The position numbers and the translations under genes are program-made. From the NCBI GenBank assembly GCA_963971425.1, contig OZ020521.1, forward strand, positions 8,387,519-8,451,518: 64,000 nt of DNA, written 5' to 3'. Under the pieces are notes generated by a model. It was not told where the DNA came from, ran no database searches, and saw only the letters and a list, made by a program, of their open reading frames with translations. Below are positions 19,358 to 62,030 of this stretch, piece after piece. Within the stretch, counting starts at the first letter, position 1. Each line of letters opens with the position of its first letter. Source of the stretch: Bryoerythrophyllum caledonicum (lineage: Eukaryota > Streptophyta > Bryopsida > Pottiales > Pottiaceae).

Positions 19358-19905
19358 TTAAAAAAACGGTGTTAGGATGGGTCCACCTTCTGACGTTGTC
19401 ATGGATTGGATCATTAGATACTATGCAAACTGGGGTTGATCATATTCCAAAGTGGGCACAGTGACGGAGGATTGGGTGAGCGTGACGCGGGAAAGGTGCT
19501 GCATCCACTTCAGCAGCACGTGTAGAGTGGCTGTCGATAAACTGTCGGACAATGTTTGGCGAATGGGACCAAAGCTGGCATTTGAGGTCATCATGTATTG
19601 TACGTTTTGATACGGTTTGGTGAATGACAGTGCTTTCCATAAACAATTGGCCAACCTTTTCTTCTCATCCCCTACAGTATACCATTCCCTTTATGTAGTA
19701 TGGATTAGGGTAATTGGATATTTTTATTTAGTTTGATTTTTGGCACAAAACAATTGAAATTTGATAGCAAAAGAGCCTAAGGGCCTGTTTACACTAAGGT
19801 GAAGAAGTGCACCGGTCGGTCAAGAAGGCATGCCCAAGACATGGTTATTTGAGGCAAGGGACGATGTGCCGGAGAAGAGGAAAAGACAATAAAAAAATGT
19901 GTCAA

Positions 19906-20029: not shown

Positions 20030-20354
20030 ACTACTTCACAAAATGGTCATAGCTGGCTATAGTAGAAACCTTACCGGATAATAAACGACCATTGTATTGA
20101 AATTAAAAAAAAATTGTATTGATTAAAAATATATATATATTTGGCAATTTTTTGGAACTTCTTTCATAACATGAATTTTTTGAGTTAAGCACTAAAAGAT
20201 TGAATTGTAAATTATGAGTTGTAAACTTGAAGTGAAAAAGTTGTGAAGTTGGAGTTGTGATCTTGGAGGTTGGCATACAAAGTTGGACTTGCAAAATTGC
20301 ATATTTGAGTTGTGGAGATTGAAATTACAAGTTTTGAGGTGAGATTGCAAGTTT

Positions 20355-20560
20355 AGAGATTGTAATTGCAAATTGAGTTTGTGGGTGTGTGAATTTGAGA
20401 TTGTAATTGCAAGTTGAATTTGTGGGTGTGTGAATTTAAGATTGTAATTGCAAGTTGAATTTGTCGGTATGTGAATTTGAGATTGTAATTGCAAGTTGAA
20501 TTTGTGGGTGTGTGAAATTGAGATTGTAATTGCAAGTTGAGTTTGTGGGTGTGTGAAATT
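20355..20560 (+). repeat. minisatellite, unit about 42 bp, five copies
   Basis: The unit contains GAGATTGTAATTGCAAGTTG followed by A(G)TTTGTGGGTGTGTGAA. The units differ at only a few positions. The simple repeated protein seen on the minus strand is a by-product. Confidence 0.85.
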
Positions 20561-20782: not shown

Positions 20783-20791
20783 GCACATGCG
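20783..20791 (+). repeat. 9-bp target duplication of the MULE, left
   Basis: GCACATGCG directly precedes the left terminal repeat. The identical 9 bp follow the right end at 33135-33143. Nine bases is the typical Mutator duplication. Confidence 0.92.
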
Positions 20792-21437
20792 CCCGGTCAC
20801 TACAGTCAATCCAGGTTCGCGGTGTCAGGGCCCGGTTTTAGCCCTGACACCGCGAAGAGCGGCCCTTCTCCCCAAGCGCCTTTTCGCCTCCTTCCCACGA
20901 TAACTGCCACTCTCGCCCTTAATTATTTCGCGCTGCCCGTCTCTCTTTTCGGCACTTCTCGCCGAAAGCCCCTTCGCCCCCGCCTTCTCCGGATCACCGA
21001 AATCCCCTTCTCGCCCCCGCCTTCTTCGGATCACCGAAGTCCCCTTATCGGCCTGACATGTGTGCTCCAAAATGACCCGCCCTTCTCGGCGGCTTCAAAC
21101 TGCCATCCACACCATTTCGTACGGCGCCGTCTTTGGCACGATCATTGTGCCGTGTAGAATCCTTTCGGAAGGGGAGTGATTGTCTGCGCCTGAATTGAGT
21201 TCCTCGATCACAATCTCCCCATACATGACAGGTCGAATGGAGATTCTAGCGAGACGGCGCCACCAACCGTTGCCGATAACGGGGCAGCAAGGAGGAATTG
21301 GAGGCGTCAAGGGAGAAAGAAAGAAGCTGGCGTGCAAGAGAAGGGGCTGGAGGACCTTGATGCCGCGTTTAGGGTTTGGCCCGCATGCAGACTACCTGAA
21401 GACACACGGTCACAAGGTTCTTCGGATGCGCGATTCG
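20792..21437 (+). repeat. MULE left terminal inverted repeat
   Basis: Matches the reverse complement of 32520-33134 with scattered differences. It is about 31 bp longer, mainly because of a local duplication of a GGATCACCGAA.TCCCCTT block at 20991-21047. It includes a copy of the first part of the transposase coding region, in which the ATG has become TTG. Confidence 0.9.
20816..20856. repeat. perfect 16-bp hairpin inside the left TIR
   Basis: TTCGCGGTGTCAGGGC, a 9-nt loop (CCGGTTTTA) and GCCCTGACACCGCGAA. The same hairpin is conserved in the right repeat at 33070-33110. It lies 24 bp from the element end. Confidence 0.9.
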
Positions 21438-23992
21438 AAGAGTAACGCAATCCAAGCTTATTGCTGATATTCCCTCAGATTGTAGGTCCAGGCTAATCAG
21501 TTTAGGCGGCGTAGGCAATAATCATCATCGCCATCACCATCACCATCAACGTGAAACCCTAATCCAGGCATGGCAAAGTTTTGTGTGGCGGCACCATTTC
21601 CAGCACTTTCGAACTGTGTTTTTTGTCCTCTAGCGACATATACAGGATCTTCAAGCTCTGCGTCAGCGATCGCTGCTTCAAAACTCTAGGATTTTCAAGG
21701 CTTTGCGTCAACGATCGCCGACTGAACTTTTCGGTAAGTTCCCTGCCTTTCTTGCTTTTTATTTAATTCCATTTCAGTAAGTTCTCTGTCATTCTTACTT
21801 TCCATTTCTTTTCGGTGATGCATACGGGCGGTCCTTCTTCCATTCCGTTTCAAATGTGAGGCGTTGGAAAGTAAGCTGTGTGAAGGTGTAGGAAATTTTG
21901 CAAAGCGTCCAGGTTTAGGGTTTAAGAGTTTTAGGGTTCCCGATAATCGTTTCTTGCGATAAGGTTTCATGTTCGGCAATATCTTCCCTCGTAGGACCGT
22001 AAAAATGCCGAAGCGGCCGGTGTGTTTCTGCAAGCCACTGTTTGATGAGATCCCGGTGGAGAACAGGAAAGGGATTCCGCCCACCTACAACAAGGAAACG
22101 GGGAGGATCGAGCAGCTATTCGTCATTGAGAACGACCACATTTGGCACGATAGCTGGGAGGTGATGGAGGCGAGGGACCTTATCCTGGAGCTGCATGGAC
22201 CGAACTCGTCCATCGTACCGCCTGGACAAACCGGCCCCAAGCAGATACTGTGCATTCTTTGCAACACGACGCACCAGAAGCACACGTTCAACCTCCACCG
22301 AAACCATGCATTGTGCGAAGGGAAGGGGAAGGAGGGCGTGAAGATGCCGTCGTATCCCAATTTGGGCGTCAGGGATGTGGCGAACTTTGTGGCACGACTT
22401 CGGGATTGTCAGTCGGCTGAAGATGCAATTCAGGTATTCGGCACCATAGAGCTGATAGCCACGAAGAGGAGGCCTCGGAAGGGTGCCGATAATGAGGAGG
22501 AACCAAACAGTCGACGTCGAATTAAACGCGGGAAGAAGCTGTCACTGGAGGGTCCTCCGCAGAAGCGTACCGCGGCGGCTTCTCGGAAAAGACCTCCGCC
22601 CCCGAAAGCTATGTCGAGTGACGATACTTCTTCCTCGGCAGAGTCGGGAGGAAATCACAGCACAGATCATGAGGCCGATAACGCACGGACTCTGACTGTG
22701 CACGGCGAGAAGGGCGGTCTTCCGTCCGGGGATGATGCCTCTAGGAATTCCGGTGCCGAGAACCCGATGTCGAAAGTCCGGAAGTCCGCACTCGCGCCGG
22801 CGCCCAAGAGGGATTCCTCCATCGTCCTCCGGAAGGCGGAGCTTGCGAAGCAGAATGTACCAAAGAAGGTGGCACAAGCTGAAGAGGCCACGAAGAAGGC
22901 GAGATTTGAAGAGTCCTCGAAGAAGGCATTCCGGCCCCCAGCAACGGCGAAAAGGCTTACGGGAATGTCTGTGGAAGAGACCGCGATGGCGAGAAGGCAT
23001 CGACCTCCACCGGTGCAACAGCGGTTCAGAGAGACGAGTAATGCCGAGAGACCCTCCGACTCTGACGAAGGAACGCCGATAACCTTGCACGAATCCCCCC
23101 AATCCTCGGCCCAGAAGGAACAGCGACCGCCGCTGACATTGGCCAGTATACTTCAGTTAGGCTCTGATGATGGTGCGAATCCCGATAAGCGCCTCATTCT
23201 CCCGGCGAAAGGTAGCAGGGAGCAAGCTTTGCAGTCGGAGAGGGCCGAGATGATACGGTAGGTGCAGGAGGACGCTGCGCGCCTTTTCCCGTTGAAATTG
23301 GTGCCCACCCCCGAAAGTAAGGTACCGATAACGCCGTTGTATCTACTCCTCAAGCATGGTCTGCTCGACAGTATCACGATGGGCAGTTTACATTCCGAAG
23401 ATGAGCTGTTGAAGTACGTCTTGTCCTTGGTGGAGTCTGGAGGCAGCCAGGGGAGGTTCCACCAGGCTCTCGGTGCGTGCATTTCCGAAGGGGTCGGCTT
23501 CGACGATAACCCTGTCTCACTTCAACAGTTGTCAACCCTTTGCAATCTGGCAAAGAATCCGGATTACAGTACAACGAAAGAGGTCTGGACAGAGGCATCG
23601 AGAGGAACGTGGGCATACATGACGCATATGTTGAAGTGCGTCCAGTTAGAAGCGGCTTTGTAGGCCAAAAACGACAAACAAAAGCGGTGTAGGGAGAAGT
23701 TAGTCAGGATGGAGATGAGTAGATTTGATGCCGAAAGGGCAGTGGAGACAGAGGCTATTCGATGGGACTTCAACAATCTCTTCGGGTATTGCACGATGAA
23801 CGAGATTCTTCGACCATTGCTGCCCCCACTGCCATGGACGCACAACATTGACGAGGCTCGAGATGTCGTGCACCGTCTAATTTCTATCAGAATCGACATT
23901 GCCCCGTCTCCGGCTCCAGCTATGCTGTTGAAGTGTTACTTCGTTTGCAACGGGTTCTCGCGGGTGTAAGTTTTTCCTTCTCGCCACAAACT

Positions 23993-24115
23993 TGTCCCTT
24001 ATCGTGTCTTCTCGTCCCTTATCGTCTCTCATCGTCCCTTATCGTCTCTTATCGTCCCTTATCGTCCCTTATCGTCTCTTATCGTCTCTTATCGTCTCTA
24101 ATCGTCCCTTATCGG
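23993..24115 (+). repeat. 10-bp tandem array of CTTATCGTCC units in intron 1
   Basis: About twelve units with a period of exactly 10 bp (TCGTCCCTTA or TCGTCTCTTA), in the first intron of the peptidase gene. Nine of them contain TTATCG, the word enriched across the whole MULE. The 10-bp period is close to one helical turn. Confidence 0.9.
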
Positions 24116-26402
24116 TTTACTTGACTCCGTTGTTTTTCAGGGGCCGGAATATGTGCAATCCTAGCGTAATCCCCGGGCCTGCCAACATTGAATTGTACGT
24201 GGACGCTCCAGTGGAAAATTGGGATGGGCCGTCTCAAATGTACGAAGTCCTGAGTCCCTTCCTCTTCGGAAGGGACGCATCCGATATGCACCTCCCGTTC
24301 TCGACGGCGTTCTCGCGGCTCTGCGATAATAAGAACGGCGGGCGAGATTCTGTGTTGCGCTTCATCGAAATGGTCCATGCTCGCACTGTCGTGGACACGG
24401 CAAGGAGTCATCCAGAGGATTTCATTCGACAGTGGTGTGCTGCCGATAAGGGTATCTACGAACACTGGGATACCCTGGACGAAAACTGCTTGGCAAGGGA
24501 GGATCTGGACTTCATGTATGCCGGCTACGTTCCACGTAAGATTTATCTGATAACCCCGTCATTCATCTAACTGTTTTCTTCCTCATTCTTGGTATCTCCG
24601 TTATTTCCCTGTGACTAACGATAAGGCTTTTGCAGGCACTGTAGATCCTACCGGGGCACGTGAAAGGGATCTTGCAGAGGCAGATTGCAAGAACGCTGTG
24701 TTGCGTCTGGTAAAAAGAGAGTGGGATCGGCGAGAAGGGCATCCAGTGACTTCACATGACGAAATTCGGCGGGAGACGTCTACTCGAACAAGGGACCTCG
24801 AGGGTGCAGCCACCCTCCTTCACATGGACGAAGGAACCTCGAATGAATTCCACGTCCAGAATCGGTTCCCGAGGAGTAACGCCGACGAAGAATTCCCCGA
24901 CAAGTGTATGGACGATGTTACGGAGGAAGCACAAGAGGGGCCTAGCGACAAAATACGTCAGGGAGGTGTTCCCGATAGCGTCCAGGAAGAGCCCGCTTCT
25001 ACAACGGTGAAGTCACCGGGCCGTCCCGCCGATAACCCATCTCTCATGGAGTTTTCGTGGACACAAGCAATGAATGACCCTACCCTCGGCTTTCCGGAGT
25101 CTTCACAGTCGCTGATGGGGCTATCTCAATTCGACACTCCTCTTTAGCATGTTGTGTTTGCGGGTACGGGGGAGACGGAACCCGACATTAAACCCCACCG
25201 TCTATCGTTCCCTCTGTCGAGTCAAGGTATTGAAAACCTGGACTCTACTGACAGTCCCCCGGTGGTTCCCGAGGCGCCTTCCGTGACACCCTTGGAAAGT
25301 CATCCAATCCCAGAGAAGGCTCCCTCTCCGGACTTCGATTACGCTTCTCCGCCAGGGCCCGATAACCCTGCTCCTCCGCCAGAGCCCGAGAACCCGCCAG
25401 AGCCCGAAAACCCTGCTAGCCCGCTGGAGCCCAAGAACCCTGCTAGCCCGCCAGAGCCCCAGAACCATGCCAGTCCGCCAGAACCCGTTGAGCCTGCTTC
25501 AGCGCCAGATCCTGATAGCCCTGTTCTGGTATCTGAGCCCGATAAGCCTACTCCTTCGCCAGAGCTCGATATGCCTAGTCCTCCGCTAGGACCATTTCAG
25601 GCTCCTCCTCCGCAAGAGCCCGATAACCTTTCTCCAAAGGAGATGGACCCCGAGGAGATCAGACTGGCATTGTGTTTTTTCAAGGAAGCATAGGAATCGC
25701 AGTTGACCAGTATTTGGGTTTATCCTGGACTCGAAGAGCGTGTTCAGAACAGTTTTAGGGGAGAACAGAAGGCGGCGTATACGTGAATGTTGGAGAAGAA
25801 TCACGGAGTATGTACTTCAGACGGTGTTTCTGGGGACAAAGAGCCCTCGCTCTACTACGAAGCCGAGGAGCATGACGCATCCACGATAGAGAAGAACCTC
25901 AGAATTATTGTGGAGGTCCTAAAACGAAGGTGAGTGTCGTCGTTTATGTTATCGTGTTCTCCGACACCTGTTGTTTATCGGCACCTATTGTCTAACATCC
26001 CCTTTCTTCTGAATTGCAGGCCTCGTTTTATTCACCCGAAGGACCTCACTGGAGGTATGAGGTTTTTCGGTCCAGACCTTCGGCAAGCCGTGGATGTCTC
26101 GCTTGCACTACAGGACTGGCATTGCGTGCTAAAGGACAAGCGGGAAATGGAAGGCACATTTCTAGATTTCCTCCTTAGGCATGTCGTCTACAGGGCGAAG
26201 GAGCATGTTCGAATCCAGTATCATCACACGCACAACTGGTTATCGGCGACCTTGCAGTGCTATCTGGCGGATGAAGGGAAGGGTTGGGATGACATCGTGA
26301 GCTTTCTCAGCCGCTCGTTCCGTAGCACCGCCAAGACGCCGAATACCCTTTTCGTCCCTTACCACGATAAGGGTCACTGGAGCGTATTCGTCGTGGAGCA
26401 AA

Positions 26403-28738
26403 CACTATAAGAAACCCGTGTTTTTTGTTGTGTCCTTAATCATGTCAGCGTGTTTTTTTGATGTCTTGGAGCTAGCCAGTAATGTCCCCGTGAACGTGAG
26501 GATGTCCACGCGTCAATAATGAACAGTGGAGGTGGGAGGGTCCCGAAACGCGCGTGCGAAATAGGAGACGCGATGATGTCTCCAACAACGCGCCCGTCTC
26601 CGAGGACGTCATCGAGGACATCTTGGGTGACGCAAAACTGCCATGCTGGCAGCGGACAAGCGTTTCACCTGAGGTAAGAATGTCGAAGTTACTATTGTGC
26701 AAGGTAGAAAGCAGCCCAACGTTAAAAAAAACAACGAAACGGGCAGCGGTCTGCAAGAGGAGGAAAAAAAGGCACGAGCCTTATAAAACTAGATTTTTCT
26801 TTTAAAAAATAAAAAAATAAAGTATATAAAATTGAAGAATATTCTGATTATATTTATTAACTTTGATCCTCTGAAATTTTTGATTTGTCCACTTCGTATC
26901 AAAATGGTTTCCAAAATAAAATTTAATTTTAAATATTAAAAATACAAAATTATTAATTAATATTATAATAATATTTTATAGAAATTGATTATTCTGTAAT
27001 TAAAGCGGACATATTAAATTCAGTACTGTATATTTAAATATAAAATAATATTTATTAATTAATATAATATTAAAATACCACTTTTCTACCAAAACCCGAA
27101 TTATAAGGAACTTAGGGTGATTTTGTAAAGTCCTTGGTGGCTTACCCATGTGGACATATTATATATTTTGTAGTTTACATCACTTCATCTACATGGCAAA
27201 CACAATTCCATGTCGGACAAGGTGACACATCATTCTGTGTATAGGTCCACGTCACTTGAGACATCCAATTGAAGATGTCTCGAGTAACGTCTACATGTCT
27301 TTGAGGACATCCCACAGAGACGTCTCTGAAAACATCAACAGTGTTTGGCAAAACATTGACATGTCCTGGAAAACATCGTGTCTTGCAAAACATAACCATC
27401 AAGTAGAATGAATTTCGTCAAGTTCATTGGATGAATAGAGGCCGTGAGGGTTAGCTGCTCCAGCCATAGTTAGGTCATGAGGCGGCTAGGGTTAGCTGCT
27501 GCAGCCATAGTTAGGTCATGAGACCTTTAAGTAGAATTTGAGGTTGCACAAAGCTCACTTTGGCCTTCATTTCTCCAAGTAGTTAGAGTTTAGAATGTAG
27601 AGGTTGGAGTTTTAGAGTGTAGACTGAGTTTACAAGTTAGAATGTTAGAGTTTAGAGTGTAGAGGTTAGAGTTTTGAGTGTAGAGGTAAGAGTTTAGAGT
27701 GTAGAGGTTAGAGTTTTGAGTGTAGAGGTTAAAGGTGCAGTGTTGGACATGCAATGTGCTGTGAGCGACATATAGACGTGACCATGTTGTAGAAGACGTA
27801 TGCCGCAGCACTTAGGAAACGCATGGACGTCTTTTGAAACATCCCCGTGTCTATGGAGACATATTTTAAATTGAGTGTATATCATATTACCACATTTGCA
27901 AGTAGGCCAGTAAGCATGAATTTGGATGAATGTACATGTTACATGTAAGATGAGGTATTCATGTCTTGTACTCATGTCTTGTACAACATACTCATGTCTT
28001 GTACAACGTATTCATGTCTTGTACAACATCTCTTGATGTCCCTCAAAACACCATCACATACACAGCGTCAACAATACCATGCATCAGGGGATGTCACGTC
28101 AGACACGCATAAGTTCTTTGAGACGTCTGCAATGACACCCTCAGTGCCGACGACCATGGGTCGGCAACGTATTGGAGGACGCGATCATGTCCATCGCCAC
28201 GTCCTCTAGGGCATGGCGATGTTCAACGAAATCAGCATCAAAATCCAAGTAGCGTTGGCGTAGACGTCGAGCAGGACATCTCCACGTCAACTCGGGACGT
28301 CTTAAAAAACACAGCCATGTTACCAATGACGTCCTCACAAACACAAATCTGAAAAAAAACCACGCAAATCTCTGCTGACGTGGCACGCCACGTCACTCTT
28401 TCCCGGGTCCACATCAGAGGCCACGTGGGTCCACGTCACATGCCACGTCAGATGCCACGTCACCAATGGAGAGGATGAATTTCCCGGCCATGTGGCACTG
28501 CCCGTCATCCTGCCGCTTAGGTGTCGTCTACGTGGCGCCCAGTTGGCACCATTTCCAGCCTCCCAAAATCTCCGAAAATCGTCCCTATCGTAGGGATGTC
28601 CTCGCGTTTTTGGTGATGTCCCCACGCGTTACAGCGTGTTACACGCGTTGGTACGTCAGAGGGATGTAAATTCGGATGTCTACATGTCTCCTGGAACATG
28701 ATTCAGGACGTGACAAAAAACACGGGTTTCTTATAGTG
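26403..28738. mobile_element. non-autonomous CACTA (En/Spm-type) element nested in the MULE
   Basis: The terminal inverted repeats start CACTATAAGAAACCCGTGTT and are identical for 26 bp. Plant CACTA elements typically begin CACTACAAGAAA. AAA lies on both sides (26400-26402, 28739-28741), the 3-bp duplication expected. It is 2336 bp and encodes no transposase. Subterminal arrays are present: many GACGTC/GACATC/CATGTC words, and at 28375-28470 a dense run of CCACGT/ACGTGG. The middle (26780-27120) is very AT-rich. It lacks CGATAA completely, unlike the MULE around it. Confidence 0.92.
27585..27735 (+). repeat. short tandem repeats inside the CACTA element
   Basis: Units of about 20 bp, AGAGTTTAGAGTGTAGAGGT and variants, repeat roughly seven times. 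A second short array, TCATGTCTTGTACAACAT (unit 22-24 bp, four copies), lies at 27960-28030. Confidence 0.8.
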
Positions 28739-29373
28739 AAAGGCGAACGTATCACCTGGACCCAGCGAAAGGCATGCACAAGGGTCGGGAAGTGAACAAC
28801 TTCATCTTCCTTGTGCACATGGGATGGGCAACCGCGAAGGGCGTGAGGATCGGATCTCGGAGTTGGACTGAATGGCAGAGTCGATTGCCGATAAGGTTGC
28901 CTCTGCCTAGTCAGAAAGAAAGCTGGGAGTGTGGTTTCATGGCAGGCTTGGGCTTCTGGCAGTACCTTATCGCACGCGGTGGGCGCAAAGAGGCGGAGGA
29001 GAAGACCGTGACGGAGACCAAATATCTGGACTGGGACGGGAAGAAGGTGTACCGATGGTTCATGCAAGCGCTGTATACGGAGATTGTCGCACCGCTTCCG
29101 TTCCACGATGCCCTTAATCTATGTGGTCAGGATACGGTGGAGTTCGGAAGCGGAAGTCCGGACGTAGTTTTCGTGGAAGCCGGTATAGAGACGGCAAAGA
29201 AGAAGGAAGTCCCAGTTCTTGGTATTTCGGAGACAGTGGGGGATCGTGATCTTCAGGGCTTCAACGTGCTCACAAACCCACCAGTGACTCGAGGAAGGCG
29301 GAAGAAGTCAACCGCGCCGAAAAGCCCGAAAAAACCGAGAAAACCAAAGGGCACCACCAAGACGAAGAAGTAG

Positions 29374-29749
29374 GCGATAAAGGGGGGGTGTTGTACACAG
29401 CCGATAGACTCCAGGAATTTGTACAGATTAATAGGATGCGATGTTGTACATTTCATTCATTGTAAATGACAATTTTTTCGATAGCGTACATAAACGGATT
29501 TTGGACCCCCTTGCAGAGGCTTGTAAGCGGAACTTAAAATCCAGTCTTTGCCGATTATATTGAATGTTGAGTTTTAACTTTCAAACTAAAGAAATACCAC
29601 TTCAGTGGAAATTTCAGCCGATGCATGGAACATAATCTAAGAGCATCTTATCGGCAGTATTCTACCGATAAGATTACTAATGGTTATCGGTGCAGGTTTG
29701 CAGCTGAAATCCTCTTCCCTTTATACTCATCCACATCGGTGCCGATAAC
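29374..29749. other. space between the two convergent MULE genes
   Basis: It holds the 3' regions of both MULE genes. Four CGATAA/TTATCG words lie within about 100 bp at 29645-29745, the densest group outside the intron array. No coding sequence. Confidence 0.6.
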
Positions 29750-32700
29750 CTAAGTCGTTTCTTGAGTTAGTCTTTCGCTAGCTGGAACGGACCTCACCCG
29801 AAAACCTCTCGAATCCAGGAAGTCCTGCAACCTTCGGAGCCTCATTCCAAGACCGTCTTCATTTGTGGGGAGCGGTGCAGCTATATCCTGGAGTGGATGA
29901 AGCATTCCGGCTTCGATTTCAGCCTCCAACCTTGAGAGGGTGGCGTCGGTGTTGCGCAAAGCTGCATCCAAGTGTCTTGCTAGCAACGGTTGGCGATAAG
30001 CCTTCTCGAGTAGCTTCAGGAAAAGCTGATGCATACGATCAAAGTCGCATACCCATGTCTCGCCTAATTCTCGAAGGTTGGAAGTCACTGGGTTACATCT
30101 CCGGCTTCGGTATCAGAGGGAACATCATTATCGGGGAAGCCGTCGGTATTCGGGTGTCGACCATTGTCTTGGCGGAGAAGATTCGTCATTCCTCCTTGGA
30201 TTGTGCCGCGAAGGGAGCCCAGATATCTAGCAATTTTTCCCTCCGCCAGGTCAGGTCTTGTCATTTTCAGGACCTTAACCTGGTGCTTACAGATGTTACC
30301 TTTCTGGGAATGAACACATTGGCAGACGGCCCATTCGGTGCATGCATTGTATACCGCATACGTAATGTGTCTCCTATTCGAGGATTTAACGTATGTAGGA
30401 CCTCCCGACCACTCGGGCAAGGTGACCACATTATCGGGAATTGTATTTGCTTGGTTGATTGCATTGACCATGATCTGCCGCTGCCTCTTGTTCTTTATAA
30501 AATAGTTTAGCTTACACCAGTGACTGTAATCATACTTCTCGATGACATTTCCAGTGAGCTCATAAATAAGCCAGTCCATTCTTCGGCCGATAAGCTTCCT
30601 TTTGGATTGCCGGAGCATTGCTTTCATGTTAGAATGGTATGATTCGATCGCTGCAGTGGTGTCCTGGCCAGCATGGGGGATTTTCCGGTCTCCCACAACC
30701 CACATTTTGATTTTCGGGAGCCATTCCTTGTCGAAGTACTTCCAGTATGCATCAGCGTCTGGCAAGAGAGCCTTAGCTTCGCCGTAAACGTGCCGCACCC
30801 ACTCTACCAAATTCCACACCTTATCGCCGGGAGCTCTCGCCGAAGGGTCTTGGAAGTCATTAGGTGTCTCTGATACGTACATAAGTGAGCCCACAATTCG
30901 CAAAGCTCCGGCCCTCGTCTCCATGTCTTTCAACTTAGCACATGCATTCTTCTGCCACGCTCGACGAACATGCCAGAGACATAGAAATAGATGCGAGTGC
31001 GGCCAAACCTCCCTGCGATAACCCGACAAGCCGATAAGTACAACTCGTTGAAGCCCATCACCTGATAACGTAAGAATGCTAAATTGCTTACCGAAGAGAG
31101 TTGATCTCATTATCGGCGTCGTCAAGTACAAAGGCAGTGGGTCTCCAGTCCGGCCTTATCTGCACCAACTTCTGCTTCAGAGCGCGCATCCAAGGCACGA
31201 GATCTGCTTGTTTGGACTTCGCAGTAATCACGAAAGCCACTGGAACCCCGTTTCTCCACTCGTCGAATACCATCATCGTGAAGAGCGGATACTGGACACG
31301 CAAGCAAGGAATTAAGCGGTATGGGAGTGAGTGCTCCTAATTTTTATACGGACCCTACATGGAGCACGGTAAAGGTATGTGTACCTTTTTGTTGTTCGTT
31401 GCGAATGTCCCGTCTATAGCAATAATGTTATCGTGACTGTATTTCAGCATCATGTGCGTCTGAAATGGGGTTTGAATCCCAATTACGAAGGGTACGTTAT
31501 CGGCATTCAACACTCCGTCGACCTTGCTGCCCGGGTCTTGGTAGTAAAAAACCGTACCTCGGTTTTCTCGGACCCACATTCTCACACTCTCAGCGTCGTT
31601 GTCGTGTTTCTTGTATAGTTCTTGCACACGGACTCCGCATATATTGCGGATGTCCTCCATGCTAATGAAATAATCCCGAGAAAGCACCCTCATCCCGTGC
31701 CTTCAGTACCAGCTTCTGGTGCTTCTATATTATAGCTGCCATCGGAACTTGCTCTTCAAATTGCCTCAGAACCCAAAGCCTTACTTCCTCCGATATGTAC
31801 TTCCGAAAGCGGAGCTTTCCCCTCTGCACATTGTCCTTATCGTGGACGATGAGGCCCTGTGTGTCGACATGTTCCGAGCAAAAGTACCCTACCTCGGCGA
31901 TATATGGTAGAAAATAGAACCTCTTTACGTAGAATCGACATTGGCAGCCCACTTTCATAGAGCCCCCCTCCTTCGCATCAGTGGCACGAGGGCCTTTCTG
32001 GCCAGCGCCGGACGTAAGTTGTTTCCCTTTGTGATTGTATTTCGATGGCGTTGGTGTCATTTCGGGCGTGATAGCTTGGATCTTGTCCCTGTTGTCTTCG
32101 GGACCGTATTGACAACGCCATCTGCTTATCGGCGTTGACCATCAGAGATACGTGCGGTACTGAAGAGATGTAACGGCACAGCCGATAAGCAGATCTACCG
32201 TGTATATTGAATGTGATATCAGAGGTCGTGATTCACTTACCGCTGGTACTCGATGTGGCAGTTCCACCGATAGTGCGTCTTCTGGCCGACGTTTATGGGG
32301 TCGTTCTTGTCGCGGACGAAGGTAGTCTCTACATCCTTTCGGCCAGACTGCTCACCCTCCACGAAATCCGAGACCCTATCCCAGGGAATGTAGGCGATAA
32401 GCTTGGATTGCTTCCTCTTCGATGATTGCGGATCTTCTACGAACCTCGTATCATTCTCGGCCTCCATATTCCACCTAAGACATTTCCACGTCAAAATTCC
32501 TGGAGGAGGGTTCTGTAATGAATCGCGCATCCGAAGAACCTTGTGACCGTGTTTCTTCAGGTAGTCTGCATGCGGGCCTTCCCGGAACGCGACATCAAGG
32601 TCCTCCACCCCCTTCTCACGCACGCCAGCCGGTTTCTTTCTCCCTTGACGCCTCCATTTCCTCCCTGCTGCCCTGTTATCGGCAACGGTTGGTGCCGCCG

Positions 32701-32761
32701 TCTCGCCAGAATTCCCATTCGGCCTGTCTTGGATGGGGAGATTGAGATCGAGGAACTCCAT
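29750..32761 (-). pseudogene. MULE transposase (MURA-like DDE with SWIM zinc finger), broken
   Basis: Exons on the minus strand: 32761-32241, 32121-31385, 31291-31092 and 31012-30085, with a tail frame 30088-29750. Splice phases fit except for a 1-nt shift in exon 2 near 31700 and another at 30085-30088. Exon 1 holds a WRKH-like region (PHADYLKKHGHKVLRMRDS). Exons 1/2 join to RWRCQYGPEDN, and exon 2 has the metal-binding pattern VGCQCRFYV...FCSEHVDTQG. The catalytic motifs are IDGTF (first Asp, exon 2), FVLDDADNEINSLR (second Asp, exon 3), CLWHVRRAW (exon 4) and then AAIESYHSNMK. The SWIM finger is CQC-(8)-CKH in exon 4. One in-frame TAG at 31727-31725 lies where Gln fits. The enzyme would cut and paste elements with the shared TIR, but this copy looks dead. 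Confidence 0.87.
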
Positions 32762-33134
32762 TCACGCGGAGACAAGCACTCCCCTTCCGGCAAGGTGCTA
32801 CACGGCACAATAGATCGTGCGAAAGACGGCGCAGTACGAAACGATGTGGATGACACTTCGCGCCGGCATCCGCCGAGAAGGGCGGGTCATTCAGGAGTAC
32901 ACGTGGCGGGGCGAGAAGGGGATTTCGGTGATCCGGAGAAGGCGGGGGCGAAGGGGCTTTTCGGCGAGAAGTGCCGAAAAGAGAGACGGGCAGCGCGAAA
33001 TAATTGAGGGCGAGAGTCGCAGTTATCGTGGGAAGGAGGCGAAAAGGCGCTTGGGGAGAAGGGCCGCTCTTCGCGGTGTCAGGGCTAAAACCGGGCCCTG
33101 ACACCGCGAACCCGGATTGACTGTAGTGACCGGG
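32520..33134 (-). repeat. MULE right terminal inverted repeat
   Basis: About 615 bp matching 20792-21437 in reverse. It includes the transposase start codon and roughly the first 80 codons, so the coding region begins inside the repeat. The hairpin is at 33070-33110 and the matching 9-bp duplication at 33135-33143. Confidence 0.9.
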
Positions 33135-33143
33135 GCACATGCG
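33135..33143 (+). repeat. 9-bp target duplication of the MULE, right
   Basis: GCACATGCG, identical to 20783-20791, directly after the right terminal repeat. Confidence 0.92.
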
Positions 33144-57662: not shown

Positions 57663-59120
57663 TGCTGAACTTCATTGCCAGCTCTCACAATGGCTGTAAA
57701 CCCTGCTATACTCCCACACCTCCTCGGCCATAATCCCTCGTTTTATCACCACATTAAACCCTACACAACCATTCAATAAATTCAGTATCCTTCCCATCCC
57801 TCACGACAGCACCGAAACTCCAACACCTCACCAAGCCGCACCAATTCCACCACAACTCCTGAAAACCAAAATGCAACTCCCACACACTCCTTCAATCGAC
57901 CAAAACTAGAAATAAATCATAACAAAAACACTCAACCCGCTACTAACACCAACACTAATTTCCTCCTCAATCCAACCTCCTGTTCCAAACCTCAAAAACC
58001 GCAGCTAAACCTCAACTCCTCTCTCCGACACTAATTCCATCTCCAAGCACTCGCCTCCACCCCCAAGAAACCTACCTAAAACTGCATAAAACCACCTAAA
58101 ATCGTCCAAAATCACCGATTCTCACAGCGCTCCGTTCCAGAGGCGCGAGACGAGGAACGAGGAGGAGCGCCGCGAGACGAGGCGAATCATGCGATCGCGG
58201 CAATGGTAACCCTAGACGGGTGAAACCGGGGTCGCTGGAAGCGGGGGAGCGGGGAGGGGGGGCTATTGGCAGGGGCGAGGAGGGGCAGATTACGAGGCGA
58301 GGCGGGGAGGAGCCGGAACCTGCAGCGCGGGGGCGCGCGGGGACGCCATAGCCGAGGCGCGGGGGTGATGAGCTCCACTGCAAGTCGCCCTTCGTTCCTG
58401 AGGGAAACATCTCGCGGCGGGAGACGCCATTATATAGTCGAGAGCGCTTGCCACGTCAGCAGGAGCATCATGTCCACGTAGGATTTTAGGAGGGTGGGAT
58501 AGACTTTTGGGCGCCGGCCTGGTGACGTGGCTTGTTCCACGCTGGAACTGGGTATCACCGATACTTGAAGATTATCCATCGTTTCTAGAGATTATCACTT
58601 GGGAAACTTGTAGCAGATAACGGTTTTGGGTTCCTTATTCGACCACGTAAGCAGGGGGAAGGTGTCCAGCTCGGATGTTTCGTGGGTCCGGGGGGCGAAT
58701 TGGCGGCTGGCCTCGTGTGGTGGTTTCTAGAAGGATCCATCACAGAAGTATCTATTACCGTGGTACATTCGGCCCTTCAATTCTAAACGAGAAGTAGATA
58801 TCTTTGGCCATGCATGGCGTGATGGTTTGGGGATCAGGTGGGATTTTGATGACGGGATTTGGGGTTTAGGATTTTGGGGGAATCGGAGATGGGTGCAGTG
58901 GTCGATGCGTGGTGAAGATGGAGTAAGGTAATCACCTCTATAACCAATAAGTTAAATAATGTGCATGCATGGAGAGAGGAAATAATTATTTTTTGATGAT
59001 AGCCGATTGAATTAGAATTTCGACCCGAATTGTTTCATATTTTCCCAATGAAATGTGGATTTGTTATGAATTTTTAAAGTGTGCTGCCATGTTTAGCTGG
59101 TGGTTGCCAATAGATATTTC
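57663..59120. promoter_or_regulatory. TAF2 leader and upstream region with a GC-rich patch
   Basis: 57663-58095 is C- and A-rich with pyrimidine tracts, typical of a leader or promoter. 58100-58440 is GC-rich with open frames on both strands, which I read as composition effects. Beyond 58500 no signal was recognised. Confidence 0.4.
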
Positions 59121-59125
59121 CACAA

Positions 59126-59605
59126 GCGTTGACCAAAACTAAGGGATCTAGATTGATTGTGAAGCGCTGACAAAAAGTAAGAGTCTCTAACTGATAGTGA
59201 AGCGTTGACCAGAAGTAAGGGATCTGGGGTGACAATGAAGCGCTGACCAAAAGTATGAGTCTCTGACTGATACCAGAAGTAAGGGATCTGGGGTGACAGT
59301 GAAGCGCTGACCAAAAGTATGAGTCTCTGACTGATAGTGAAGCGCTGACAAGAAGTAAGGGATCTGGGGTGATAGTGAAGCGCTCACCAAAAGTATGAGT
59401 CTCTGACTAATAGTGAAGCGCTGACGAGAAGTAAGGGATCTTGGTGATAGTGAAGCGTTGACCAAAAGTAAGACTCTCTGACTCATAGTGAAGCGCTAAC
59501 CAAAAGTAAGGGCTTTGAGTGATAGTGAAGTGCTAACCAAAAGTAAGGGCCCTTTATTGATAGTGAAGCTTGATCAAAAGTAAGGGATTGTGATTGATAG
59601 TTCAC
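59126..59605 (+). repeat. minisatellite, unit 36-43 bp, about 12 copies
   Basis: The core AGTGAAGCGCTGACCA is followed by AAAGTAAGGGATCT or GTATGAGTCTCTGA; two unit types alternate in the middle. Frames on the minus strand with repeated SALHYQSETHTFG are by-products. Confidence 0.88.
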
Positions 59606-61132
59606 ATTTGATTGGATAGATGAATCAATGGTAATGTAATGGAAGTGGATTGGATAAAGCCCTTGTATTATGGGTGTCATTATGGGTTTTGATTGGTTAG
59701 CATGGGGGTTACCTTATAAGGTATCTTGATTGTTTGATTAATAATCTTGTAAAATGCCATACCTTATAAATAAATGTAGATTTCAAATATTTAGAAGTCA
59801 AAAACATTGAAAATATACAAGTAATTGTAGATGAGGCAAACTAACAAAATTCGTAATGCAAAATGGTATATTATTTTTAGTGGAGATAATACAAAGATTG
59901 CTACAACATTTTGTCATAAATTCCTTAATGACTTAGAAAATTCTCAAATGAATAAAATTATGAAAGATTAAATAGATATATCACTCTATATATGTATGGA
60001 TATGTTATTTAACTACAATACTTGTGACAAAATAGGACATAAAAATATATAAATTGGAATATTGAATTTTAAAACCATTAAACAATTTATTACTTCAATT
60101 CATTTGGATAAGGGTTTCATATGCAATTTCAATCAATAATTTAGGGCTTGAATAATACTTCAAAACATGCCTTTGTGGTTAGTAAAATATAATGTATCTT
60201 GATGTATTTGAAAGCAATAGACATTTGCAATGCATATAAGGTTAAAATACATGTCCATTCTACTACACAAACGCAAAATTGAAAACAACCAAGCCCTCCC
60301 CGACACACAAACCCTCCATAGTATTACCCGTTACTTACTTCTCTTTGAAACTCCAAAAACCCTCCACTTTGAAAACACACTCCCCTTAGTGTTCCCTTCC
60401 TCTTTTTTCCTCTCCTCTTCTTGTCGCCCCTCCCCCCTTTTCCTTTGATGCTTTTTCGATATGGATGGATTCTTGTGTACTTTGGTTACTTGAAACATAG
60501 TGTCTACCCTTTGAGAGGGGGAAGTAGTTCCATACTACTAATTCCTTGTCTCGTGGGCATGGTCATAGTGGTGGAATAAACAGACACTTTATTCACGTCG
60601 GCCCCTTCGCGGATCGGCGTTCTTCTTTCTATTTTAACATTTTGGTGAGAAATACTCAAGGAATTTTAGGGGTACAAGTTGTAAAAAGAAATTTGTTGAA
60701 AATGTAATGATACAAAAATCTCTTGAACTTATATGAGGTGTATGAAAAGTTGGAATGTATAAAAATTTCTCATTCCACACATTCACTTATACTAAAAACC
60801 ATTAATAAAATTCATTTGGGAACGCGTAACATGCATTGTACATTCATCGTTCACATTGACATGGCTGCAACGTAGAAATATTTAATAAACATCCATTTGA
60901 AGATCTTAAAAAATGACCTAAATTTAAAAAATAGTCAATATTGTTCTCGCACGAAGACATTATCCACATGGATTACGTTACAACGTATCCATGTATGATT
61001 AATCTTCATCTGAGTCACTGTCACGTCTTTACTTGGCCCAGCGCCAGTTGAATACGGCCCGCTTGAGTAAACATCATACAAGTTATTGTACTGCGTGTGC
61101 ATGAAGCGGGATTTATCTTCGAGCTTGCGGAT
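59606..61132. other. AT-rich intergenic region, no gene seen
   Basis: 59606-60230 is strongly AT-rich. 60290-60450 is a pyrimidine-rich stretch. I saw no element ends or coding sequence. 60995-61132 may be the C-terminal end of the broken gene that follows. Confidence 0.4.
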
Positions 61133-61196
61133 TTACTCTTCCTGGCTCTCTACTGTGGCTTCACGCGTTTGTCTCTCAAACTCGGCATCTTCATCC

Positions 61197-62030
61197 TCAC
61201 GAGGTCGAAACGTTGGTGGAGGTGTTGTCACTCTCATATGTGCTCCGGCCATATCCATCGTACGAGACGGTTGCATAGTTTAGGGTGTGGTATTCTTCCT
61301 CTTTCCTTCGGGAATTACGACAAGACTCGTACGTATCCCTTGGATGAGTTGGCGTATAGCTCTGAGGGGTGTTGGTTCTTGTACCACATTGGCCGCCTTT
61401 GTAGTAATGGCCGCCACTTCCCTCACCAAATGATACCGGCGCGGAACCCATATCATTGCCATAGTTGTAGTCGTTGTAGTTATGGCCCTCGTAATCTTGT
61501 TGAATCTTGGCCGATGGCCGTTGCTGCTGGGCATCAGGATCATCCTCGGATATTCGGTTTGACCAACGTGGCCAACAATCACTTGGTTGATTCCAGGTGA
61601 TTTATATAAAATATTGGCTTCGATCCAAGAAGGTGACATTACGACCCGCCACGTTGCGCCAATCCACATCCTTGTGTAGGACAATTTCTGCCCAAACCAT
61701 TGCCATGTGCAAGTACAACTTGATCTCCGGCCTCGAGTTGCGCACACCCACCGCAGTTGTGACTTCATGATATCGATGCAGGAAATGGGCGCTCTGACAA
61801 CAGCTCGCTAGATCTTTGCGCCGCAGCCCCGATATCCTCGCTTGTGCCCTCGGCCACAACTTCATTAGGTGCTTCATCGTCACGTATCTCTTCCACATGG
61901 TGCAAGTCCAGAGCCTCTCTTCCTCATCCTACCATCCATATTTTGCGACAACATCTACATCGTCCGTTGCGTCCCAATCCATCTCGGGGGCTTTCCCCTT
62001 TGGAGCAACCGGGCGGTTAGACCTTGGCAT
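61197..62030 (-). pseudogene. unrecognised, probably element-derived gene with Gln-to-stop changes
   Basis: One reading frame runs from the ATG at 62030 (MPRSNRPVAPKGKAPEMDWD) to 61197, about 278 codons, broken only by TAG at 61931-61929 and TAA at 61604-61602. Both sit where Gln would fit (KYGW-stop-DEEERLW; YFI-stop-ITWNQPS). The N-terminal 130 residues are basic and rich in Trp, with RISGLRRKDLASCC and HLHMAMVWAEI-like helices. The tail is rich in Tyr/Asn/Gly (YEGHNYNDYNYGNDMG). A shift near 61200 leads to a charged helix, EDEDAEFERQTREATVESQEE, then TAA (61135-61133) and IRKLEDKSRF. I do not recognise the family. The layout (Trp-rich N-terminus, disordered middle, coiled-coil end) fits a DNA-binding accessory protein of a transposon. 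Confidence 0.5.

Follow-up and report, generated by a model that had tools for sequence, protein, structure and literature searches.

Why should one six-base word, CGATAA or its complement TTATCG, fill a single transposon and stop at its borders? The question is raised by a Mutator-like element (MULE) at positions 20792–33134 of a 64,000-bp stretch of the Bryoerythrophyllum caledonicum genome (contig OZ020521.1), the whole of which is referred to here as the window. The element is a MULE: it has long terminal inverted repeats (TIRs), a 9-bp target duplication, GCACATGCG, at 20783–20791 and 33135–33143, which fixes its borders, and a read-through transposase protein that matches the MULE transposase domain PF10551 (E value 3.7e-14, 53.4 bits, cut-off 27.6). 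The density of the word in this element is almost certainly the product of selection for a short word at the level of the DNA, and sister families in the same genome carry words of their own.

The initial annotation had estimated some fifty words in the MULE where about five would be expected; we counted 54 (28 CGATAA and 26 TTATCG) in its own 10,007 bp, while 500 dinucleotide shuffles returned a mean of 4.27 (standard deviation 1.99, maximum 14). CGATAA was the top 6-mer of the element and GCCGATAA the top 8-mer; the highest 6-mer z score was 24.3, and no 6-mer exceeded 4.8 in 30 shuffles. Removing the intron array (23990–24124) and one TIR left 42 sites in 9,227 bp against 3.8 expected (maximum 11). 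Words were few in the rest of the window, as had been noted, with 10 sites in 51,657 bp, below the 17.7 expected (five in a flank of 20,791 bp, 7.7 expected, and five in the other of 30,866 bp, 10.0 expected), and CGATAA was never the best 6-mer in 12 other 4-kb chunks (best z scores 4.6–13.2). One such chunk (58000–62000) held nine AGCGCT against 0.4 expected, likely a local repeat. The outermost MULE sites, 20898 and 33023, lie within the borders and the nearest beyond them are at 19535 and 33641; the earlier statement that the flanking arms lack the word therefore stands only if the arms leave out these two sites. The nested CACTA-type insert was free of the word, as reported, but just 1.1 sites were expected there, so this zero is weak alone. 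Neither a count within the shuffled range nor an equal density in the insert and other nearby sequence, the outcomes named beforehand as telling against enrichment, was found. Outside the array, the word has the context V-CGATAA-S, with T at −1 in none of 45 sites and C or G at +6 in 37.

The sites are distributed over the following features:

20792..33134, unstranded: TIR-MULE with a 9-bp target duplication; 54 sites in its own 10,007 bp
20792..21436, plus strand: left TIR, in pieces 87–100 % complementary to the right TIR; three sites (20898, 21045, 21274)
22005..29373, plus strand: second gene (putative ULP1/C48-type), 16 sites in exons; approximate exons, plus strand, 22005–23965, 24141–24535, 24636–25929 and 26020–26402 + 28739–29373
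23994..24114, plus strand: intron array of 10-bp units GTCYCTTATC; nine sites
25343..25630, plus strand: 27-bp proline-rich coding minisatellite; the units at 25343 and 25604 contain the word, and a further site is at 25540
26403..28738, unstranded: nested CACTA-type insert, 3-bp duplication AAA; no sites
29375..29743, unstranded: spacer between the convergent genes; five sites, on both strands
29750..32761, minus strand: transposase gene, 10 sites in exons 30087–32761; approximate exons, minus strand, 32761–32241, 32121–31385, 31291–31092 and 31012–30087, then a shifted frame to 29750
32520..33134, minus strand: right TIR; two sites (32676, 33023)

Both genes, the introns, the spacer, the TIRs and both strands thus carry the word, as originally described. 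Exons hold 26 of the 54 sites in 7,052 bp, introns 16 in 656 bp (nine in the one array), spacer and untranslated regions eight in 1,281 bp and non-exon TIR four in 1,018 bp. Density is greater outside exons (28 in 2,955 bp, nine of them from the array) than inside; for this split, 29750–30086 was counted as outside, though it is coding in less broken copies. Spacing is slightly even (coefficient of variation of the gaps 0.76 versus 0.97; 3.5 % of random sets are lower). The TIRs, of about 0.6 kb, are 87–100 % complementary by piece apart from one 34-nt piece at 82 %, and two of the three left-TIR sites are retained in both arms. A 41-bp tandem repeat (20312–20560) lies just left of the MULE border.

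Both genes of the window copy are damaged. The second gene is broken by several in-frame stops plus the CACTA insert, and the transposase has a stop and a frameshift in exon 32121–31385; the in-frame stops (23259–25693, 31725–31727) are, by eye, mostly TAG. The 3′ end of the second gene gives a weak C48/ULP1 match (Pfam Peptidase_C48, E values 0.006 and 0.021, both below the cut-off), and its protein a weak match to the SENP2 structure 1tgz (E value 0.098), with the protease active-site His, Asp, Gln and Cys spotted by eye. Its N-terminal C-x2-C-x11-H-x2-H-x2-C is invariant in the five rows compared, three of them from the CGATAA family. The transposase also has a Cys/His-rich N-terminal region (exon 32121–31725), recognized by eye, which may resemble WRKY/FAR1-type domains.

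Relatives of the element were sought in the genome (437,360,962 bases, 894 contigs; the window lies on G000:C9) with a transposase query, for which 89 of 1,539 first-look candidates were scored, giving at least 119 matches. Twenty copies were taken from the best-scoring matches, leaving aside that of the window and another located on a short contig. The enrichment was present in all 20, which have 21–57 words and in every case exceed the highest count in 30 shuffles; the lowest copy (L026, 21 words) covers just 3.3 kb of the element. In the diverged copies L029–L032, CGATAA is the first or second 6-mer (36, 23, 17 and 32 sites, respectively). L030 (G000:C388) has AGACAT/ATGTCT as its top 6-mer (31 versus 6.0 expected), perhaps from a neighbouring repeat, and ATGTCT is also found near the end of the window's CACTA insert. 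Gene 2 of the L029 copy (G000:C514:14832-16766) is 88–90 % identical to public protein P0046. Genome-wide, pairs of CCGATAAS in the same direction and at most 30 bases apart numbered 463, versus 34 for a control pattern; among the first 100 of these places, 16 of the 17 with letters look by eye like known MULE contexts (27-bp coding repeat, transposase intron, spacer, intron array). Runs of such pairs at 27-bp spacing occur at G000:C1:34000160-34000437 and C1:55407007-55407230. Each run has a gene-2 match no more than about 2 kb away and appears to be the coding minisatellite, consecutive units of which contain the word.

Could the coding sites reflect codon use or a peptide repeat? The initial annotation had argued that they fall in different registers, and they do; the distribution is, however, uneven, with 19 of the 26 exon sites in the sense register C-GAT-AA, three in sense CG-ATA-A, three in antisense TT-ATC-G and one in antisense TTA-TCG. 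Its minus-strand example, at 29994, sits in the frameshifted transposase end, outside these 26. Its further claim, that neither codon preference nor a protein repeat suffices, held up in four exon pieces of copies L017 and L009, cut at the splice borders (1,652 codons), which contain 17 words versus 4.4 when synonymous codons are shuffled (maximum 11 of 1,000) and 2.5 when codon order is shuffled (maximum 9). In these exons, C precedes all 10 GAT codons that are followed by AA and only 4 of the other 36, and D[NK] dipeptides number 18 against 10.2 expected, with E[NK] at 9 against 12.2. The word therefore bends both codon and residue choice.

The sites also turn over. The window and L029 (6,671 aligned bases, 81.6 % identical) share 15 sites, while 16 are found only in the window and 10 only in L029. 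Gains expected from a CpG-aware substitution table, built per alignment, were exceeded in both directions (observed/expected 10/1.75 and 15/2.11), as they were between window and L032 (7/2.50, 17/2.80) and between L032 and L029 (15/2.17, 12/2.47). Gains in related copies, which the annotation had suggested following, thus run at 2.8–7.1 times expectation over six comparisons. Thirty pooled control words (one CpG plus four A/T) gave 59/57.9, 71/60.2, 57/74.7, 84/65.0, 58/52.9 and 50/65.9 (0.76–1.29 times expectation), with single control words reaching about 3.3-fold. One sequence serves as the ancestor stand-in, so that losses in the opposite copy account for some of the differences; three-way site counts show both gains and losses.

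Among the 20 near copies (window included), changes of the C-to-T type affected 497 of 19,449 CHG, 469 of 25,057 non-motif CG and 476 of 54,991 CHH positions, a pattern that methylated, silent copies would be expected to show. Decay is fastest at CHG, and the mostly-TAG stops are consistent with CHG methylation. Motif CG (23/1,788) and motif A/T columns (20/3,556) showed no clear difference from their counterparts in these copies.

Other MULE families were brought out by a transposase query from Ceratodon purpureus, which is, with Adiantum and Cryptomeria, among the named relatives of the transposase; over 220 residues, the Ceratodon protein and a copy of another MULE family in the genome share 78 % identity. 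L034 (958–4883, G000:C8) is a 3.93-kb element with 180-bp TIRs that are 99.4 % identical and an 8-bp target duplication, and its recognizable frames are those of a transposase. It contains 40 CGAGAC in 3,926 bp versus 2.83 expected (maximum 9 of 200 shuffles), and its flanks none in 4,074 bp (0.66 expected). Neither word is enriched in the element of the other: CGATAA occurs once in L034 (1.65 expected) and CGAGAC five times in the window MULE (6.7 expected). The exons of L034 hold 23 CGAGAC in 835 codons versus 2.1 on synonymous shuffling (maximum 7), and these occupy all six registers (4/4/4 sense, 3/4/4 antisense). A second copy, L037, is 97.5 % identical to L034 and has 28 CGAGAC in 3,000 bp versus 1.9 expected. 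This family is the strongest evidence in our analysis. In family W (L036, G000:C11:10750000-10753199) the word is CGATA, with 33 in 3,200 bp versus 9.73 (maximum 19 of 200) and the next base free (A11 T9 G8 C5). All three words are balanced between strands (CGATAA 28/26, CGAGAC 18/22, CGATA 16/17). Among the 100 matches listed, 17 have identical scores and, like the W copy, an open frame of 447 aa, which suggests that W was recently amplified, the family being assigned by frame length and score only.

Families X (L033) and Z (L035) have no comparable word. In a 24-row transposase tree, the CGATAA, CGATA and CGAGAC families form one clade with three environmental proteins (support 100/98), while X and Z, both on long branches, fall outside it. 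Downstream of the X transposase, and convergent with it, is a ULP1/C48-like frame (L033 6791–7057, minus strand; 32 % over 97 aa, E value 4e-7); since X has such a frame yet no word, a gene of this kind alone does not bring the word. The selection at the DNA level proposed in the annotation is thus borne out by the density on two strands, the excess over synonymous shuffles, turnover at held density and the words of the sister families.

Enrichment, borders, DNA-level cause, turnover and family-specific words are shown by the sequences themselves; to explain them, we propose that a family-specific recognition word saturates the element and would be bound along its whole length by a protein that the element encodes, the likeliest candidate being the transposase, which would make contact by its N-terminal Cys/His region. 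Selection in active copies would hold the density at about one site per 100–220 bp while single sites are gained and lost, and would place the word even in exons, at a cost in codon and residue choice. Related families would have moved to other words (CGATAA, CGATA, CGAGAC), each tagging its own DNA, and the most likely role of the bound protein would be to keep the chromatin of the element open or to counter silencing in cis, as VANC does. Taken whole, we judge this explanation to be probable on balance. Its parts are not equally firm: we hold it quite probable that the reader is encoded by the element, we lean somewhat towards the transposase over the second protein, and the anti-silencing role, drawn from analogy, is a possibility to which we give rather less than even weight.

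The least probable alternative is that no selection is involved and that the word was left behind by an ancestry built from repeats, by biased mutation or codon use, or by a repeated peptide. The 10-bp intron array and the 27-bp coding repeat do multiply the word, and one register is common to most exon sites; yet 42 sites are left without the array and one TIR, both codon shuffles fall far below the observed count, gains exceed expectation where pooled control words do not, and the CGAGAC family fills six registers evenly. Scarcely more credible is a host factor (e.g. GATA- or MYB-type) that binds the word and is exploited by the transposons. GATAA is contained in CGATAA, and transposons often recruit host factors; however, promoter use needs no dense placement in exons, and a host protein would be expected to favour one word, whereas sister families in this genome differ in theirs, which argues against a host reader.

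The main rival is a VANC-like system in which the second-gene protein reads CGATAA via its N-terminal Cys/His cluster and removes silencing, the transposase not being the reader. VANC proteins of Arabidopsis VANDAL elements act in this way with other words (PMC5735166), and a 2026 review describes ULP1-carrying VANC genes, each acting on its own kind of motif (PMC13317346); in our data, gene 2 travels with the CGATAA family and its cluster is invariant. Against this, five gene-2 queries gave no tblastn match (E values up to 0.1) in the 8-kb stretch of L034, an element denser in its word, while the same queries match L029 and L032; the ULP1 protein N-terminus, put forward in the annotation for a binding assay, is accordingly a weaker candidate reader. 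Two genome searches with gene 2, each scoring 66 of about 1,200 candidates, listed no match adjacent to either CGAGAC copy or to the W copy sampled, although a diverged gene 2 may lie near W copies. Family X has a ULP1-like frame and no such word, and Pfam scans of the gene-2 pieces (E values up to 1) found no DUF1985, the divergence of which may be beyond the reach of Pfam. If the 3.9-kb CGAGAC element is complete, the second-gene protein is not common to all families, and the transposase therefore remains. We regard the second-gene reader as unlikely, if well worth considering, and give a similarly low probability to the transposase binding the word for another job, i.e. picking intact self DNA for transposition or avoiding self-insertion. 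This last reading draws on the same data as the one we prefer, the transposase being the shared gene, and the slightly even spacing of sites would suit coating.

Extending our preferred explanation, a clade of TIR-MULEs may use an element-wide password, with one short CGA-type word per family that runs through TIRs, introns, every codon register and both strands, read by the transposase and serving both self-recognition and as a shield from silencing, so that word and reader would co-evolve and families be mutually invisible; we offer this more tentatively still. The VANDAL/VANC system is a known case in which transposons counter silencing in a sequence-specific manner (PMC5735166, PMC10398659, PMC13317346). 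If our explanation is true, a separate MULE clade of a land plant has a similar strategy, which works through coding DNA too and in which a transposase may take the place of a dedicated helper. The presence of three words and three transposases within a single genome makes word–reader co-evolution directly testable, and the element is a plain example of protein-coding sequence moulded by selection on the DNA.

How does this locus compare with known systems? The VANDAL papers describe family-specific words, mainly in non-coding tandem repeats, that are read by VANC with local CG demethylation; the words are YAGTATTAY and AGTTGTCC/AC, arrays are in one orientation and the coding probes tested had none (PMC5735166, PMC10398659). 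Likenesses to our data are that the carriers are MULEs, that a short word is enriched in one family but scarce elsewhere (54 versus 4.3; rest of the window 10 versus 17.7), that related families have different words (CGAGAC in L034/L037, CGATA in L036) and that a tandem repeat has grown within an intron. In contrast to VANDALs, the words of the window MULE are dispersed and strand-balanced, with 26 of 54 in exons and only nine in the intron array, and its TIRs are about 0.6 kb, whereas VANDALs mostly lack TIRs, though some relatives have them. We considered VANC membership for the window MULE and rejected it, as no DUF1985 was found, the TIRs are long and half of the sites are in exons. Kaonashi-type MULEs have an extra gene ending in a ULP1/C48-like domain, as the second gene of the window MULE may do; those described in the review are non-TIR elements of flowering plants, while the window MULE has long TIRs and transposase relatives in moss, fern and conifer (PMC13317346). 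Among the titles and abstracts listed from the open-access literature, none described a word that runs the length of a MULE and into its exons. Ac/Ds and Spm/En contain many copies of a short subterminal site bound by an element protein; those sites lie near the ends, whereas in the window MULE the word also fills genes and introns. Bacterial DNA uptake sequences are likewise a short word on both strands through genes, but they are genome-wide, whereas the word described here is bounded by one transposon.

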